From Candidatus Bathyarchaeota archaeon (lineage in GTDB: Archaea > Thermoproteota > Bathyarchaeia > 40CM-2-53-6), in contig VBBD01000020.1 of NCBI GenBank assembly GCA_005882895.1, positions 1 through 48,773 of the forward strand: a stretch of DNA of 48,773 nucleotides, written 5' to 3'. Position 1 is the first letter of the stretch; every line of letters starts with the position of its first letter. This document shows positions 24,504 to 36,893 of this stretch, piece by piece. A program made the translations under genes and the position numbers. The notes under the pieces are model-generated. The model had not been told where the DNA came from. It saw only the letters and a list, made by a program, of their open reading frames with translations, and ran no database searches.

Positions 24504-26012
24504 ATGTCTGAAGAGAGGAAGAGGGCAATCGGCACGATACTGGAAGCAGGTTTCCAGATGGAAAGCGACGCCTTCAAGGCCCTTATGGAGATCAGCGCTA
24601 CCAGTCAGCTCGACCCACTCGTGAAGGAGGTTCTTCGGGTCGCCGGAACCGTAGAACCGCGGCCGGCGTCAATTAACAGAGACCTCGTTCTCAGGGCCGC
24701 CGAACACCTGGACATTCCCGGAAGGAACTTGGAGACTGAACATGCTGGATTAGGGCATAGGCGCCGTTTTGCGGAGGACCTTGAATCTCAGCTAGAAGTT
24801 GTCTCCGACCCCACAGGCAAGCTCGGAACGACTGGTGCGTTCGATGATTTTCTCCACTATTTCAGAAACCGTTTTGATAAGATGAGCCTGCTCTTCAGGC
24901 AGAGAATGGACACGCGAAACGCTGGGACCATTTCTGATGCGCTTTCAGGCGGATCAAATGGGCGAGGTCGTTTCATCTGTATGGTTCTCGACAAGAGAGA
25001 GAAGGGCGATCGGATCTTTCTGACAGTTGACGACTATGAAGATGAAGCCACTGTTCTCGTTGGACGGCAGAACCCTACAGTATACGAAATGGCGAGGAAG
25101 ATAGTCAGGGACCAGGTTATCTTCATCCAGGCCCGAAAGAGTGCGGGCCCCCTGCTGATTGCCGAAAGTATCGTTCTCCCGGAGATTCCGGATAGAAAGC
25201 CGGCCCACGCCAGCGAAGAGGTCTACGCCGCCCTAATATCCGACGTTCATGTTGGGAGCAAGGTGTTTCTCGAGGACGAGTTCCACAGGGTTCTAAGCTG
25301 GTTGAAAGGAGAGATCGGAACACCGAACCAGCGTGAGATCGCAGAAAGAGTGAAGTACGTTCTGATCGGGGGCGACCTAGTTGACGGGATCGGAGTCTAT
25401 CCTCGTCAAGAAGTGGACCTAGCTGTCCCAGATATCTACGAGCAGTATCGTTTGGCGGCCAAGTTCGTCAGCGAGATTCCAGAGTACATGGATGTAGTTC
25501 TGATACCCGGAAACCATGACGCTGTACGTCAGGCCCTACCGCAGCCTGCTATTCCGAAAGAATTCGCCGGACCCGTATACGACTCCCGGAAAATTGTCTC
25601 CTTAGGGGACCCCGCGGAGGTTCGCCTGCACGGGGTCAACTTTCTACTCTACCACGGAACCAGTCTAATGGATATCCTAAGCGGAGTCCCGGGCCTCGAC
25701 TACCAGCGTCCGGTAGAGGTCATGGAGTACCAGCTGAAAGCCCGGCATCTCTCTCCGGAGTATGGGAAGATGACACCTATTGGTCCTGAGCAGGAAGATT
25801 TCCTGGTAGTGGAACGGGTCCCCGACGTTTTCACCTCCGGACACATCCACGTTTCGGGTGCAGGCGTTTACAGAGGGACAACGATAGTGAACAGCGGCGC
25901 GTGGCAAGGGCAGACTGACTATCAGAAACGGATGGGTTTAGTTCCTAAACCTGGAATCCTTCCCGTTGTTAACCTGAAGACCCTTGATGTCAAGATGATC
26001 AACTTCCAGTAA
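24504..26012 (+). CDS. polB: DNA polymerase II (PolD) small subunit DP1
   Basis: ISDVHVGSKVF, GGDLVDGIGVYP, IPGNHDA, SGHIHVSGAG phosphoesterase motifs. Confidence 0.93.
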   Translation: MSEERKRAIGTILEAGFQMESDAFKALMEISATSQLDPLVKEVLRVAGTVEPRPASINRDLVLRAAEHLDIPGRNLETEHAGLGHRRRFAEDLESQLEVVSDPTGKLGTTGAFDDFLHYFRNRFDKMSLLFRQRMDTRNAGTISDALSGGSNGRGRFICMVLDKREKGDRIFLTVDDYEDEATVLVGRQNPTVYEMARKIVRDQVIFIQARKSAGPLLIAESIVLPEIPDRKPAHASEEVYAALISDVHVGSKVFLEDEFHRVLSWLKGEIGTPNQREIAERVKYVLIGGDLVDGIGVYPRQEVDLAVPDIYEQYRLAAKFVSEIPEYMDVVLIPGNHDAVRQALPQPAIPKEFAGPVYDSRKIVSLGDPAEVRLHGVNFLLYHGTSLMDILSGVPGLDYQRPVEVMEYQLKARHLSPEYGKMTPIGPEQEDFLVVERVPDVFTSGHIHVSGAGVYRGTTIVNSGAWQGQTDYQKRMGLVPKPGILPVVNLKTLDVKMINFQ

Positions 26013-26075
26013 TCCTACTGACCCTCGACCGTTTGAGAACAGATTCTAACCCCTGCATACTGGGAGAAGAACATC

Positions 26076-26103
26076 CACCCCCACCCCACGGTTTCCACTG
26101 CAA
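26076..26103 (-). promoter_or_regulatory. ORB-like element
   Basis: Minus strand TTGCAGTGGAAACCGTGGGGTGGGGG, 12/13 to the TTCCAGTGGAAAC core plus a G-rich tail. Confidence 0.65.
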
Positions 26104-26265
26104 GTACCCAACTTGCTGGGGGTGTCATTGTAGCTTTTGAAAACTTACTGGCAAGGTTAACTTGCATCCTAACAATTTATGTGGACCTGTACATTTTCCG
26201 GCACTAATTCATCTCAGATTCTGTACTTGGTAAAGGATTGAATTTTCTTGACGAGGCTCCTTCAT

Positions 26266-26288
26266 GTCTCCAGAGGAAGGAGAGGGGT
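26266..26288 (+). promoter_or_regulatory. ORB-like element
   Basis: gTCTCCAGAGGAAGGAGAGGGGT, resembles ORB (CTCCA..GGAAA.GGAGGGGT). Confidence 0.5.
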
Positions 26289-26316
26289 ACGGGTCCCCGG
26301 ATCTACTACTCGCCAA

Positions 26317-26651
26317 TTACTTGTCTAGAAATGGCACTGACAAGTCCGGTCCTATCATGGACGCTCTAATGTGTGAATGTCCGTTGCCATCATGCCAACG
26401 ATTCTCATGCTCGTAAGTCGCCTCCTTGGGGGCGAATCTTTCAAGGGCTATAGGGCTATAGGGAAATCGGTCAAAAGTCCTGGCTCGTATTCGATTGTGG
26501 TTAGGGCTCCGGTTGATCCGGGTACGAACAGAGCGGCAACCCCGTTTTTCAGCTTGGAAGAATTAACTATTCTCTGGGTCTTGTCGGTAATGTCAAGAAT
26601 TTCTCCTTCGCGGTGGGTCCGGAACCTCAACTCCTGAGCCTCGACGGTCAT
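26317..26651 (-). pseudogene. YjbQ/UPF0047-like gene, frameshifted
   Basis: MTVEAQELRFRTHREGEILDITDKTQRIVNSSKLKNGVAALFVPGSTGALTTIEYEPGLLTDFPIAL* then in another frame LERFAPKEATYEHENRWHDGNGHSHIRASMIGPDLSVPFLDK*; break lies in the tandem repeat gggctata-gggctata (26445-26460). Confidence 0.8.
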
Positions 26652-26720: not shown

Positions 26721-27194
26721 TTGTCCAAGGGAACCGGCCCCAAAGAGCTCTACGTGAAGAAAATCCGTAACGGAACAGTGATCGACCATATTTTGGCCGG
26801 CCATGCGCTGGATGTGCTGAAGATTCTAGGAATACACGGTGGCGAAGGACACATTGTGAGTGTGGCGATGAACGTGATATCGAAGAAGCAGAACAAGAAG
26901 GACATCGTCAAGGTCGAGAATCGAGAGCTCAAGCCCGGTGAAGTGGACAAGATAGCCTTGATCGCTCCCAGTGCTACCATCAGCATCATTCGAGACTACG
27001 AGGTAGCTGAGAAGACGAGGGTAAAGCTGCCTGATTCTATCAGGGGGATTGTTCGCTGTTCAAATCCCGCGTGCGTGTCTAACGCTGAGCCTGTTGAGCC
27101 AAAGTTTACCGTGGAAAGGCAGGACCCTCTTCGGCTTCGCTGCTACTACTGTGTTCGGATAATGGAGAAGGCCGATGTTCTCAAGCAATTCTAG
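26721..27194 (+). CDS. pyrI: aspartate carbamoyltransferase regulatory subunit
   Basis: KELYVKKIRNGTVIDHILAGHALDVLKILGI..., four-Cys zinc site CSNPACVSN...CYYC; TTG start at 26721 proposed (ORF opens at 26613). Confidence 0.92.
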   Translation: MSKGTGPKELYVKKIRNGTVIDHILAGHALDVLKILGIHGGEGHIVSVAMNVISKKQNKKDIVKVENRELKPGEVDKIALIAPSATISIIRDYEVAEKTRVKLPDSIRGIVRCSNPACVSNAEPVEPKFTVERQDPLRLRCYYCVRIMEKADVLKQF

Positions 27195-28542: not shown

Positions 28543-29790
28543 TTGTCGCAACAGGGATTGGATCTAATCTTCGAAAGAGTACTGTCAGGCGGAGAAGTCT
28601 TTCGCGACAGAAACCTCCTTAGGCATGACTACATGCCTGCGACCCTTCCGCACCGGGGGGAGCAGATCCGGCGCCTTGGATCCGTGCTCGCTCCCGCCCT
28701 AACAAAAGACCGAGTATCGAATCTCTTCGCTTATGGCAAGACTGGAACAGGCAAGACAATCGTGACCAAATTTGTCCTCGATCGTCTACAGCGAAAGGCT
28801 CGGGAACACGGACGAGCTCTCGATACGAGCTACGTCAACTGCCGTCTCGCAGGAACAAACTATAGAGTCATTGCCGACCTCTGCCGATCCCTCGGTCGAG
28901 AAGTCCCATTTACGGGACTCGCGGTAGGCGAGCTCCTGGACCGGTTCCGAAGCGCCCTCCAATCCCGCGGCTCGGCGTTCCTCGTCGTCCTAGACGAGAT
29001 AGACGCGCTGGTGAAGAGGAGCGAAGACGACAGCCTACTCTACGAGCTAACCAGGATAAACGAGAAATTGACAGACGGCTGGATTGGGCTCATAGGAATT
29101 TCCAACGACCTTCACTTCAAAGACTTCCTGGACCCGAGAGTCCTCAGCTCGCTCGGAGAGGAAGAGGTCGTGTTCAAACCCTACACCTCAGACGAACTAT
29201 ATGACATTCTAAAGGAGCGAGCAGAGTTCGCCTTTCGCTCCGGAGTTCTTGATGAAGGCGCTCTCCGCCTCTGTGCTGCATTAGCCGCGGGAGAACACGG
29301 TGATGCGCGACGCGCTCTTGACCTCCTTAGAGTGGCCGCTGAGATTGCCGAAAGATCACGCGAGCTAAAGGTCGAAGAAAATCACGTCCGAGAGGCACAA
29401 CAGAAGGTCGAACATGACCGGGTCACAGAGGCCCTGTCATCGCTCCCCCTCCACTCCCGAATCCTCCTCATCTCCGTCATGCAGCTTGAGAATACCCGGA
29501 GAGAGAGCTCCGTAACAGGCGACGTGTACGAGGTGTATAGAGAGCTGTGCGCTGCAGGCTCGGTTGAACCTCTCACTCAGAGGAGAGTCAGCGGGTTGCT
29601 CAACGAGCTGGACATCATGGGCGTTCTAAACGCGCGCGTAGTAAGCTTCGGCAGGTACGGTCGTACAAAGAAGATCCGGCTCGGCGTAGAAGCTCGATCA
29701 GTGACCGCTTCGTTCAGCGGGGACGAGATGGTTCGAGGGCTGCTTAGCTATGCTCCACGGAGCGTCCTCAGACATCAAACCAGTCTCTAG
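28543..29790 (+). CDS. Orc1/Cdc6 replication initiator
   Basis: NLFAYGKTGTGKTIVTKFVLDRL, LVVLDEIDAL, C-terminal winged helix. Confidence 0.95.
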   Translation: MSQQGLDLIFERVLSGGEVFRDRNLLRHDYMPATLPHRGEQIRRLGSVLAPALTKDRVSNLFAYGKTGTGKTIVTKFVLDRLQRKAREHGRALDTSYVNCRLAGTNYRVIADLCRSLGREVPFTGLAVGELLDRFRSALQSRGSAFLVVLDEIDALVKRSEDDSLLYELTRINEKLTDGWIGLIGISNDLHFKDFLDPRVLSSLGEEEVVFKPYTSDELYDILKERAEFAFRSGVLDEGALRLCAALAAGEHGDARRALDLLRVAAEIAERSRELKVEENHVREAQQKVEHDRVTEALSSLPLHSRILLISVMQLENTRRESSVTGDVYEVYRELCAAGSVEPLTQRRVSGLLNELDIMGVLNARVVSFGRYGRTKKIRLGVEARSVTASFSGDEMVRGLLSYAPRSVLRHQTSL

Positions 29791-32164: not shown

Positions 32165-32186
32165 ATGGATACAAAACCGTATCCAT
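32165..32186. promoter_or_regulatory. inverted repeat overlapping the start codon of the 32185 CDS
   Basis: ATGGATAC-AAAACC-GTATCCAT. Confidence 0.6.
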
Positions 32187-32676
32187 GGAGAATTTGGACA
32201 CCCTGAAGGGTTGGCACGAAGGGACCCGCTCGGTCATTGACGAAACTCTTCGCGATCGAATACTCTCTGCACTCTTGCAACGCAGCAATCTCACGAAGAT
32301 ACAGTTCGAAACGCTCCTTGTAGACCAGTTCGGTCACGATATAGCGAATAAACGCTTAACGAGGAGTGATATGGCTCAGTTGAGGCGAGGTCAGAAGGGA
32401 ATAAGTCGTGGGTCCTTCAATAGAACCCTAAGACAAGCGCGGGAAAACGTTGTAGAGGCGATTCACACAGTTCTGCTTCTCGGTTATTGTGGGCTGACGG
32501 AGTCTCCGAGCATCGCCCCATTCTTAGAGGCCTCCGAGCGCCTCAAAGGTCAAACCTCCCAGATTCGGGATGCTGCGCAAAACGAGCCCGAAGCCTATCT
32601 AAGAACAGTGGATTCGATAATCGACGATCTTGATCAGGCTTTCAGAGCAATGTTTGGAAGAAATCGTGATACGTGA
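32185..32676 (+). CDS. hypothetical protein, possible DNA-binding
   Basis: Coherent 163-aa helical ORF; regulator role is inferred from the surrounding palindromes. Confidence 0.6.
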   Translation: MENLDTLKGWHEGTRSVIDETLRDRILSALLQRSNLTKIQFETLLVDQFGHDIANKRLTRSDMAQLRRGQKGISRGSFNRTLRQARENVVEAIHTVLLLGYCGLTESPSIAPFLEASERLKGQTSQIRDAAQNEPEAYLRTVDSIIDDLDQAFRAMFGRNRDT

Positions 32677-32930: not shown

Positions 32931-33473
32931 ATGTTTGGGAGGGGAAAACGGCTAGGCGAAAACGGGGCCATGTTTTCCTTCGAGAATAAAGATATTGCGA
33001 GGCTGTTCTTCGACGCATTCTCAAGTAGGCTCGGCTCTTTTGAAGTGAGTTTGAGGGACTTATCTGTTGAAGTTGAGAGCCTCAAGATTTCCGGCGATCA
33101 ATCCAAGCTGTCCGACTTGGTATTGCTTGAGCGTCTACAAAAAACAGAGAAGCTTCTGGGTGAGTCGTTGAGCTGGATTAGGCAGGTCGCTGATGCAATT
33201 CTCCGCGTTCCGGCAGCGACCTCAGCGACGAAAAGAGTGGTCGAGGAGGTGTCTGAACCTGTAACAGCCAACTTGCAATCGACTGTGGGACAATTTCTTG
33301 TAAGGAATGACCCTTCGGTCGTGCAGCCGGGCTCATTAAATTCGATAACGACTCCCACTGAGCTTCAGGTTCTTACCCTTCTGGCAGACCGGGGGAGAGT
33401 CTCACAAAGCCTGAAGAGAAGGACCGCGAGCCAGAGACAGTTTCTGCTCCTCAATCTTGACCCGATATACTAA
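32931..33473 (+). CDS. hypothetical protein with a C-terminal winged-HTH start that appears cut short
   Basis: C-terminus TPTELQVLTLLADRGRVS resembles the start of a wHTH, then a low-complexity tail overlapping the convergent gene. Confidence 0.5.
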   Translation: MFGRGKRLGENGAMFSFENKDIARLFFDAFSSRLGSFEVSLRDLSVEVESLKISGDQSKLSDLVLLERLQKTEKLLGESLSWIRQVADAILRVPAATSATKRVVEEVSEPVTANLQSTVGQFLVRNDPSVVQPGSLNSITTPTELQVLTLLADRGRVSQSLKRRTASQRQFLLLNLDPIY

Positions 33474-33833
33474 GCCGAGCTTTTCCTGCTCTCTCTCGAG
33501 GACTCCTCGATCCGCTAGTCTCGTTAGATACGTGGATACTGTGCTCAAAGGTATCTTTTCTCGAAAGGTGGTCTCAAATGCCTTCCTCGCTTCACCTGAG
33601 GTAAAGCTTCTACCTTTCAGCTGGGATATGATTGTGCTTGCCAACTTGTCGAATTTTTTGGGGGAGAGCCCAAGAGCGGTAGGCGACGTTTGAGGCGTTC
33701 CTGCCATCAACTCAACGAGGTCCAGTATCTTGGCCACCTTTTCTTTTGTCACGGGACCGTCGATGGCGATGGAATGTCGGACCCCTTCCGAATCGTAGAA
33801 TTCTACCTTCAATCGTCGTGGTCTCATCTTCAT
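33402..33833 (-). CDS. winged-helix DNA-binding protein
   Basis: FTSGEARKAFETTFREKIPLSTVSTYLTRLADRGVLEREQEKLGLVYRV. Confidence 0.65.
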   Translation of the reverse strand: MKMRPRRLKVEFYDSEGVRHSIAIDGPVTKEKVAKILDLVELMAGTPQTSPTALGLSPKKFDKLASTIISQLKGRSFTSGEARKAFETTFREKIPLSTVSTYLTRLADRGVLEREQEKLGLVYRVKIEEQKLSLARGPSLQAL

Positions 33834-33949
33834 TCCTCGGAAAAAACACTGGGCTTCACAGTTCGCAGTTCACAGGTAGAAAAGGCTCACGCGTCATTGC
33901 TCGCGCAAGGCGTGAGTGTACAACACGACTACTCCTGACAGGTTCCATA

Positions 33950-33973
33950 GGTTCCAGTGGAAACGAAGGGGTC
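33950..33973 (+). promoter_or_regulatory. ORB element, near consensus
   Basis: gGTTCCAGTGGAAACGAAGGGGTC. Confidence 0.7.
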
Positions 33974-34088
33974 TCTGAACGATTTCACAGGTAGTGAAGC
34001 CATTCCAGAGCCAAAATTGGGAAACAACTCAAAGGATGACGCCGCGTTTGAGGCGAGAACGGTAATTCTACAGGTTGTGAACATGGGC

Positions 34089-36893
34089 TCAAGGATTTGC
34101 CGGGCTCGGGGTATCAGCAGGTTTGTCAGGTCCCGCGGGCACAGGTTGGGAAGGTGGCGCGATTTGAGGTCCCGCGGGGGTATTGACCCAGGGTTCAGGA
34201 TTCTTTTTTCGATGTCTGCCGACAAGCTTCAGGGTTTCAATGACGGGTGTGAGTAGAAGGGGGAGTAAGAGGAGATAGGAATAAGGTTGGAGGTCGGTAA
34301 AGGTCCGCGTAAACTGCGTCCAGGGTCCGCTTGATGACGATATCAGCGGCTTGTCTGTGGTGACTGTGTATCGTATCTTTGTCCCATTTGGCGCTTGCCA
34401 GACAAAATCTGCAGTCGCTGATGACAGAACATAGATGCCGCTGCTTTGCGTTGTTGCCGTGTAGCTGAGAAATTGGGTTTGGCCTGGAGGGAAACTAGCG
34501 AACTGGCCGGTTTGTACGCCGCTAGGCGATATCTGGAGGGTCTTCTGATAAGCGGATGGTGCCTGGTTGTCTGTGACGTTGAGGTTGGTGACGGTGACGT
34601 TGTCGAAGTTCTGAATCATGACAATGATATTGTGGCTGGTTCCGAGGGATCCGCTCGAGGGGGTCACGGTTTTCTGTAAGGTTATGTTTGGGGCGAAGGG
34701 ATAGGTGAAGTTCGCCGAGAAGTCTGCTCTCGGTGTAACGGTGGCATTGTAAATGTATGTTAAAGTGAAGTTGTTGTAGATTGGATTGGAGGGCGGTATC
34801 TGGCCGAGCGAGCTGTAGAGCACTGTTCCGCGTTGAAAGGAGATGGAGACGATGGATGCGTTTGAGTTAGTATCTCCCACGATTCCAGTTTGGAATCCAA
34901 AGAGTGTTTTCAGGCTGAGATAGTGTTGTCCGGCCTTGTAGAATTCTCGTGGAAACTGGGCGTTGAGGAGGAAGCTGAAGGCTTGTGTTGGTGTTTTGTT
35001 TAGTGGGGGTGGGAGGCTTATTGTTGCGAGGCCTATTGCAGCGAAGTAGTGTATGTTTTGGAGGGTGGCTGGTTTGATGAGGGTGGAGAAGCTTGAGCTG
35101 GGTAGCAGGCCGAGGACTCTTGTGAGTGCGTCGTTGTTTGTGAGTTCGGGGTTTGGCGCGTAGATTGTGATTGTCCCGGGCCCATAGGGAAGGGCGAAGG
35201 CTTTGGTGAAGATGACGCCGAGGGCTTGGGAGAATTGTGACGCGACATTGTCTGACTCTCCGCGAGTCGTGGCTGGGTCTCCTGTGTAGAATGTGATGAG
35301 GGCTGGTTGTGAGAATAGTCCGAGGATGAAGCTTGGAATGCCGAGACTCGAGCTGGCGCCGAGGGGTTGTGAGTAGTTGTTGTCGATGACGAAGATTGAG
35401 AGGTTGTTTCCGGCGTAGTTGTCGTCGAGAACGAGTCCTCTGCTTGAGAGGTCGAGGTTTGTCATTCGTAGGCTGGCGTTGGGGGCTCCGAGCATGTCTA
35501 ATCCGATGGCGAGGTTTTGCTGGTAGGGTCCGCTTGGTAGAGCCTGAGTTATCGGTGACGGGTGACCGGTGTGATAGCTCGGGATGAGTAGGAGGATTGC
35601 GAGTGCGAGTAGGAGGATTCCTTTCTTTGGTATGCTGCCGGTGCTTGTGCTCTGTGGAAATGTGGGTTTCTTTGTCTTGATCATTCCCCAGAAAGTCTTG
35701 AGGACGAACACGTCTCCTTGCCAGAAGAGGGAGGCTGCTCGACCGGATATCGTGGCGACGGCGAAGACGAGGCCAGCGTTTCTGATCATGGTCAGAACAA
35801 TGTCTTGAATGACCATCTGGCTTGTTGGAGATCCGCCTTGTATGAGGATCGGGATGATGTCACCTGCGACGGGTCCGGTGGTGGCGCTTATGATCGAAAA
35901 GCCTGGTGGTGGAGGCGGAAGATTGGAGAGTGCTGAGAGACTGACGTTCTGGTAGATTGCGAGGGCTGCGAGTCCTAGTGCTCCTAGGGTTGAGAGGTAT
36001 ACTGTCATGCCGACTAGGAATCCTCGTCTGATCTTGCCGCCAGCGATTAGGCCGCCGAGGAATCCTGCGAATGTCCAGAGGTAGAGTAGTGGTGGGTAGG
36101 TTAGTGGGTTGGTGAAGACGAGGAATAGCGCCACGATCATCGTGTTGAAGTGGACTCCTAGGACTGGTGAGAGCCAGTCGCTTACTTCTCTGAGGCCTGG
36201 TGATAGCTGGGTGTAGCCTATGTAGAGGACGAGGAGGTATGCTGCGATCCATCCGAGGTAGCGGCCGAGGAATATTCCCTCGCTTGGGTGGGGGAGGAGG
36301 TAGACTGTTTTGGGATCGTCAGGGGTTTGTTTGACCATTACGTTGCCTATTCGGGTGTAGAGGTAGAGGTAGAGGATGCCGGGGAGCATGCCGCCGACTA
36401 TGAATCCTAGGATGGCGGTGGTGAATGTGGAGCTGCGGGCTTTTTGGAACTGTCGTTCTGCGATCTCTTCTCTTATCCGGCTGCCTTTGTTTGAGACGAT
36501 TATTGTTCCTATTGCGAGGACGAGTAGTGCGACTGGTATGGTCTGGTGTGCGAGGAGTCCTGGGACCCATGTGGGGAGGGTGGCTATGATCAGGGTTGTG
36601 AATAGGATTCCGAGGCCGCGTGTGAACGAGCTGGAGATCTGGGCTACCGTGGTGGCTCGACGGATCTGGACTGGCGCGTCTTTCAAGGCCATGTAGGGCA
36701 GAGGCTGGGCCACGCGTCCCTCATCTCGGAAAGACGGTTCTTGGAACGGGCTAAGAAAGGGATTCTGATACCGGGGTTGGCTGTTCGGAGCGCAGGCTGG
36801 GGCTGGTTTAGGGAAGGGCGCGCGGCGCGCGACTTGAGTAGGTCCCGGGGGGCCCCTAAAATTCACAGTTACCGATTTCAAAAGTTGTTTCAA
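34089..36893 (-). CDS. large multi-TM protein with extracellular Ig-like/CARDB-type domain and Pro-rich tail
   Basis: Many TM segments; NLNVTDNQAPSAYQKTLQISPSGVQTGQFASFPPGQTQFLSYT; C-terminal PAGPQIAPPSQPVPAGPDKPADTPSPANP. Confidence 0.75.
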   Translation of the reverse strand: MKQLLKSVTVNFRGPPGPTQVARRAPFPKPAPACAPNSQPRYQNPFLSPFQEPSFRDEGRVAQPLPYMALKDAPVQIRRATTVAQISSSFTRGLGILFTTLIIATLPTWVPGLLAHQTIPVALLVLAIGTIIVSNKGSRIREEIAERQFQKARSSTFTTAILGFIVGGMLPGILYLYLYTRIGNVMVKQTPDDPKTVYLLPHPSEGIFLGRYLGWIAAYLLVLYIGYTQLSPGLREVSDWLSPVLGVHFNTMIVALFLVFTNPLTYPPLLYLWTFAGFLGGLIAGGKIRRGFLVGMTVYLSTLGALGLAALAIYQNVSLSALSNLPPPPPGFSIISATTGPVAGDIIPILIQGGSPTSQMVIQDIVLTMIRNAGLVFAVATISGRAASLFWQGDVFVLKTFWGMIKTKKPTFPQSTSTGSIPKKGILLLALAILLLIPSYHTGHPSPITQALPSGPYQQNLAIGLDMLGAPNASLRMTNLDLSSRGLVLDDNYAGNNLSIFVIDNNYSQPLGASSSLGIPSFILGLFSQPALITFYTGDPATTRGESDNVASQFSQALGVIFTKAFALPYGPGTITIYAPNPELTNNDALTRVLGLLPSSSFSTLIKPATLQNIHYFAAIGLATISLPPPLNKTPTQAFSFLLNAQFPREFYKAGQHYLSLKTLFGFQTGIVGDTNSNASIVSISFQRGTVLYSSLGQIPPSNPIYNNFTLTYIYNATVTPRADFSANFTYPFAPNITLQKTVTPSSGSLGTSHNIIVMIQNFDNVTVTNLNVTDNQAPSAYQKTLQISPSGVQTGQFASFPPGQTQFLSYTATTQSSGIYVLSSATADFVWQAPNGTKIRYTVTTDKPLISSSSGPWTQFTRTFTDLQPYSYLLLLPLLLTPVIETLKLVGRHRKKNPEPWVNTPAGPQIAPPSQPVPAGPDKPADTPSPANP

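Follow-up and report, generated by a model that had tools for sequence, protein, structure and literature searches.

The DNA analysed here, referred to as the window, is a stretch of 48,773 nucleotides that constitutes contig C58 of a soil Bathyarchaeota MAG (1.97 Mb in 92 contigs). The gene order around the locus is hflX, a phoU-like gene, the gene for the PolD small subunit DP1, an intergenic gap, a decayed UPF0047 gene, pyrI, ogg, an ATP-synthase F-like gene, orc1, and the gene for endonuclease dU. An Rfam scan of the window returned tRNA-Pro as its sole match. An initial annotation had proposed a candidate replication origin in the gap and described it as lying between DP1 and pyrI. DP1 does form the left border, but a decayed gene of the UPF0047/YjbQ type on the minus strand intervenes before pyrI, so that the ORBs sit between DP1 and the 3′ end of this gene. 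Here the UPF0047 gene has lost its 3′ end and is frameshifted at a short tandem duplication; it is intact in several relatives. The locus contains the following features (subclades A and B are sets of related genomes described below):

24504–26012, plus strand: PolD small subunit DP1, flanking the candidate origin core on its left (NCBIfam NF003118, 472.7 bits, above cutoff)
26078–26103, minus strand: left inner ORB, TTGCAGTGGAAACCGTGGGGTGGGGG, G-string pointing leftward (outward); exact motif at 26083–26100; conserved in relatives
26104–26265, no strand: AT-rich spacer, candidate duplex-unwinding element (DUE)
26142–26161, plus strand: conserved block 1, AACTTACTGGCAAGGTTAAC, near-invariant in subclade A, with TACT...GGT retained in subclade B
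26175–26197, plus strand: conserved central element, ATTTATGTGGACCTGTACATTTT, roughly midway between the ORBs
26267–26292, plus strand: right inner ORB, TCTCCAGAGGAAGGAGAGGGGTACGG, G-string pointing rightward (outward); exact motif at 26271–26288; conserved
About 26317–26650, minus strand: decayed UPF0047 (YjbQ-like) gene (Pfam PF01894; alignments and translations)
26742–27194, plus strand: pyrI, aspartate carbamoyltransferase regulatory chain (NCBIfam TIGR00240 from ORF residue 44; ORF open from 26613)
28543–29790, plus strand: orc1/cdc6, presumed ORB-binding initiator (TIGR02928, 421 bits; best solved relatives 2qby_A and 2v1u)

Inverted ORBs and the AT-rich spacer

Two inverted ORB-like sequences had been reported in the gap, and both are present in the orientations given, with coordinates correct to within two bases. 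The 26-mer TTGCAGTGGAAACCGTGGGGTGGGGG reads from 26103 to 26078 on the minus strand, and TCTCCAGAGGAAGGAGAGGGGT, whose start had been placed one base off, occupies 26267–26288 on the plus strand. The right ORB departs from consensus (CAGAGGAAGG). Motif matches, a position weight matrix (PWM), and related genomes all identify a pair of ORBs that face opposite ways, as is characteristic of an ORB-type oriC.

The ORB search pattern CANNGGAANNNNNGGGGT (CANNGGAAN5GGGGT) has three exact matches in the whole 1.97-Mb assembly, at 26083–26100 (minus), 26271–26288 (plus), and 33955–33972 (plus). All three lie in the window, and the reversed pattern, used as a control, has none in the assembly. Allowing one mismatch adds 35 matches in the assembly versus 33 for the control; since these relaxed matches stay at about the control level, the exact ORB set is clean. 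Across the 18 genomes of the genus, the pattern is matched 57 times and the control 22 times. A PWM trained on 38 ORBs, drawn solely from other families, ranks the same sites as the top three of the window, with 31.0 bits for the third ORB, 27.3 for the left, and 25.0 for the right, while the next-best window site scores 14.8 bits and the best among 20 shuffles 15.1. ORB density elsewhere in the genome and a PWM scan had both been suggested as checks on the initial annotation, and both come out in its favor: the ORB pair in the gap is far above chance. A second Orc1/Cdc6 homologue (G000:C52:45237) was considered as the seat of a second origin and rejected, given that the genome scan places no exact ORB there and that its upstream flank carries no conserved ORB-like element.

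The inner ORBs enclose an AT-rich region, as in an ORB-type oriC. This spacer, previously described as about 160 bp and AT-richer, measures 162 bp at 40.7% GC compared with 52.5%, and just 0.8% of 162-bp windows are equally AT-rich. Its inner part ranges from 35 to 44% GC across 19 related cassettes. Alignment of these 19 cassettes shows that both ORBs, the TACT...GGT block, and a central element are conserved while the remaining spacer has diverged. The central element, ATTTATGnnGACCTGTACA, has no second copy in the genome even with three mismatches allowed, and its consensus (ATTTAkGnnnnCCTrTACA) is largely kept in subclades A and B; a search for it in other families gave nothing convincing. 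Two short inverted repeats that had been put forward as an origin feature (26100–26116 and 26151–26165) do exist, but two such repeats compare with 2.04 expected in shuffles and most relatives do not keep them as palindromes, so we do not regard them as meaningful.

Placement of the cassette relative to orc1

The product of the orc1/cdc6 gene that the initial annotation placed at 28543 has relatives at 94–97% identity in soil MAGs, mostly deposited as Candidatus Bathyarchaeota. The protein aligns with Sulfolobus Cdc6-1 (2qby_A) and Aeropyrum Orc1 (2v1u), the latter an origin-DNA complex, over almost the full length of each, including the C-terminal wing GRYGRTKK. The window's Orc1 is likely to bind the ORBs.

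Both exact inner ORBs are present in 15 of the 18 genus genomes, and two more retain one with a diverged partner; the cassettes of relatives L032 and L034 have one diverged ORB. Subclade A (L032-L034, L037, L038, L040, L041) carries the ORB pair in the DP1-pyrI gap as in the window, where the core lies 2.3 kb from orc1 with pyrI, ogg, and the ATP-synthase F-like gene between them. In subclade B (L043, L046-L048, L051, and in part L044 and L045), by contrast, the ORB pair sits directly upstream of orc1, at about −283 (minus) and −123 (plus), and the orientation of the hflX-DP1-pyrI block is reversed. The orientation of the cassette relative to pyrI is the same in both subclades, so the simplest account is an inversion, one of whose breakpoints fell between orc1 and the cassette. 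Separate contigs carry the cassette and orc1 in G005. In most other Bathyarchaeia families examined, ORBs precede orc1 by less than 1 kb, or by about 3 kb in family f3, and inverted pairs or triples of them are common. The orc1-adjacent state is therefore most likely ancestral and the window's arrangement derived. The cassette is homologous to the orc1-linked ORB cassettes of relatives, as befits an ORB-type oriC. Relatives that have an intact UPF0047 gene carry the cassette between it and DP1, with the 3′ ends of both genes facing the cassette; this convergent arrangement makes a promoter role unlikely.

The third ORB and the candidate origin

The third exact ORB, which the initial annotation had overlooked, is the strongest in the genome and lies outside the gap:

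33402–33833, minus strand: BlaI-like winged-helix protein, 143 aa, conserved; adjoins the orc1 origin in other Bathyarchaeia
33953–33973, plus strand: third (outer) ORB, TCCAGTGGAAACGAAGGGGTC, lying apart from the core; conserved
33984–33998, no strand: inverted repeat TTCACAGGTAGTGAA (TTCACn5GTGAA), 3′ of the third ORB; unique in the genome

The published common archaeal ORB motif, TCCA[CG]T[TG]GAAA[TC][GA]AAGGGGT (PMC4164010), has a single perfect match in the genome, at 33953–33972. The module of ORB plus repeat occurs in 21 of 251 genomes of the class, at most once per genome, and reversed-pattern controls return none. Its usual position in the genus is 5.4–6.0 kb downstream of where orc1 starts. 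Other families have the winged-helix gene oriented divergently from orc1, with the module as the outer ORB of their orc1 origin. On contigs bearing the labels Brockarchaeota, Thaumarchaeota, and uncultured archaeon, weak homologues of the winged-helix protein are likewise encoded upstream of orc1. The protein has an N-terminal β-hairpin and weak, generic matches to BlaI/Fur/MarR-type winged helix-turn-helix (wHTH) folds; profile and fold searches against the PDB gave generic matches, none at E ≤ 0.001.

Several further observations concern this neighbourhood. Additional TTCAC-type half sites within 33850–34100 (TTCACAGGTAG at 33869 and GGTTGTGAA near 34073) are conserved upstream of the winged-helix gene and may be operators. 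A 934-aa ORF on the minus strand (34089–36893) has no Pfam match, is conserved beside the third ORB in the genus, and shows a strong local GC skew (0.25–0.37). A 163-aa uncharacterised protein (32185–32676, plus strand) recurs around orc1 throughout Bathyarchaeia, in many cases close to the gene for the winged-helix protein. In G011 (L143, G011:C155:47000-66900), the third ORB lies about 21 kb from orc1, apart from the winged-helix gene, and an inverted ORB is found 64 bp from it.

Nucleotide skew, a further check proposed at the outset, agrees weakly with an origin in this region and does not separate the core from the third ORB. Four subclade A contigs, which are syntenic and hence not independent, place the cumulative GC-skew minimum 2–9 kb from the core, and each of the four shows a positive side effect after correction for gene strand (t = 3.66, 3.35, 1.45, and 1.10). 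The minimum is broad, however, spanning about 17–34 kb in window terms, and the class-level relative G059 gives no skew signal. The GGGT skew bends in or near the interval from the core to the third ORB.

The inverted ORBs, their uniqueness in the genome, the AT-rich spacer, the closeness of the encoded Orc1 to Sulfolobus and Aeropyrum Orc1, and the conservation of the cassette in the genus, with its position next to orc1 in sister species, bear out the initial proposal of a candidate replication origin. We consider it highly probable that the gap at 26013–26316 is the chromosomal origin core and that Orc1 binds its ORBs, with an outer module that became detached and a core displaced by inversion. 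Orc1 (28543–29790) would occupy the two inverted inner ORBs, whose G-strings face outward, and load MCM onto the AT-rich spacer, which would then melt and permit bidirectional replication. The central element is probably bound by an accessory factor, comparable to ucm in Sulfolobus oriC1; for both MCM loading by Orc1 and such a factor we draw on analogy with Sulfolobus (PMC12141716). The ancestral unit upstream of orc1 would have comprised the winged-helix gene, the outer ORB with its repeat, an inner ORB, the spacer, the other inner ORB, and orc1. We infer that the outer ORB module was detached in the window's family, and that inversion of the hflX-DP1-pyrI block in subclade A then left the core 2.3 kb from orc1, between DP1 and pyrI. 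With the module detached and the core displaced, the ancestral origin is split into two places, both of which are conserved.

One alternative is that replication starts at the third-ORB locus (33.85–34.05 kb) beside the winged-helix gene, with the DP1-pyrI cassette acting as a secondary site for Orc1. This locus contains the best ORB of the genome in a conserved module that belongs to the orc1 origin of other families, the skew minimum is compatible with it, and in G011 an inverted ORB lies 64 bp away. Such an inverted partner is nevertheless missing from the window and from most relatives, no AT-rich spacer is seen there, and it is the inner pair, not the lone outer ORB, that matches the ORB2-DUE-ORB3 unit required in Sulfolobus (PMC12141716); we consider this alternative improbable. 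Slightly less probable still is that the cassette serves as an Orc1-binding regulatory site, for transcription control or initiator titration, or is a vestigial origin stranded by the inversion. The 2.3 kb that separate it from orc1, the diverged ORB of some cassettes, and the proposal that separate ORB clusters titrate the initiator in haloarchaea (PMC4010727) fit such a role, but the convergent gene ends in relatives leave no neighbouring promoter for it to control, retention of both ORBs and the central element would be unexpected in a vestige, and the assembly contains no other exact ORB pair. That G-rich sequence in an ordinary intergenic gap resembles ORBs by chance, a reading with which only the chance-level inverted repeats agree, is ruled out for practical purposes by the genome-unique pair, the wide PWM margin, and conservation across the inversion.

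The outer ORB, the TTCACn5GTGAA repeat, and the BlaI-like protein could together form a separate origin-control module of Bathyarchaeia, in which the protein binds the repeat and, jointly with Orc1 bound at the outer ORB, regulates the core remotely, by titration or as an accessory loader. We offer this only tentatively; if true, it would account for the conservation of the module after its separation from the core.

Comparison with known archaeal origins

A search of the open-access literature, with most subscription journals outside its reach, found no mapped or predicted Bathyarchaeota origin. The locus provides a base-level map of a candidate origin for a largely uncultured archaeal class, comprising a defined ORB set, a central element, and a conserved gene for a winged-helix protein linked to the origin. 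Both the inversion and the detachment of the outer ORB can be read as natural experiments on which origin parts must stay together and near the initiator gene.

By its sequence features, strict adjacency to orc1 excepted, the gap resembles an ORB-type origin; the relocation away from orc1 and the detached outer-ORB module are its variant aspects. Sulfolobus oriC1 likewise combines inverted ORBs, an AT-rich spacer that has a conserved motif at its middle, a further ORB, and an Orc1-1-type initiator, and both DUE-flanking ORBs and the central motif are individually required there (PMC12141716). Here, in contrast, core and orc1 are 2.3 kb apart, with the core in another intergenic gap, a distance of 7.7 kb separates the third ORB from the core, and the central element is likened to ucm by its midway position rather than equated with it by sequence. 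The Pyrococcus oriC shares the ORB repeats and the proximity to cdc6 and the PolD small-subunit gene (PMC2643942, PMC4010727) but lies directly upstream of cdc6, whereas the present core has moved to a site beside DP1 and pyrI. Haloarcula hispanica oriC1 and oriC2 also have ORBs with G-rich parts, and a regulatory role in initiation is proposed for additional ORBs that lie outside the core (PMC4010727); these form a cluster downstream of the origin, unlike the one detached ORB seen here with its TTCACn5GTGAA repeat and winged-helix gene. Sulfolobus oriC3-whiP likewise has a gene for a winged-helix protein beside an origin. The protein encoded here, for which a relation to WhiP or Cdt1 would be conjectural, matches the BlaI/Fur/MarR wHTH type only weakly.
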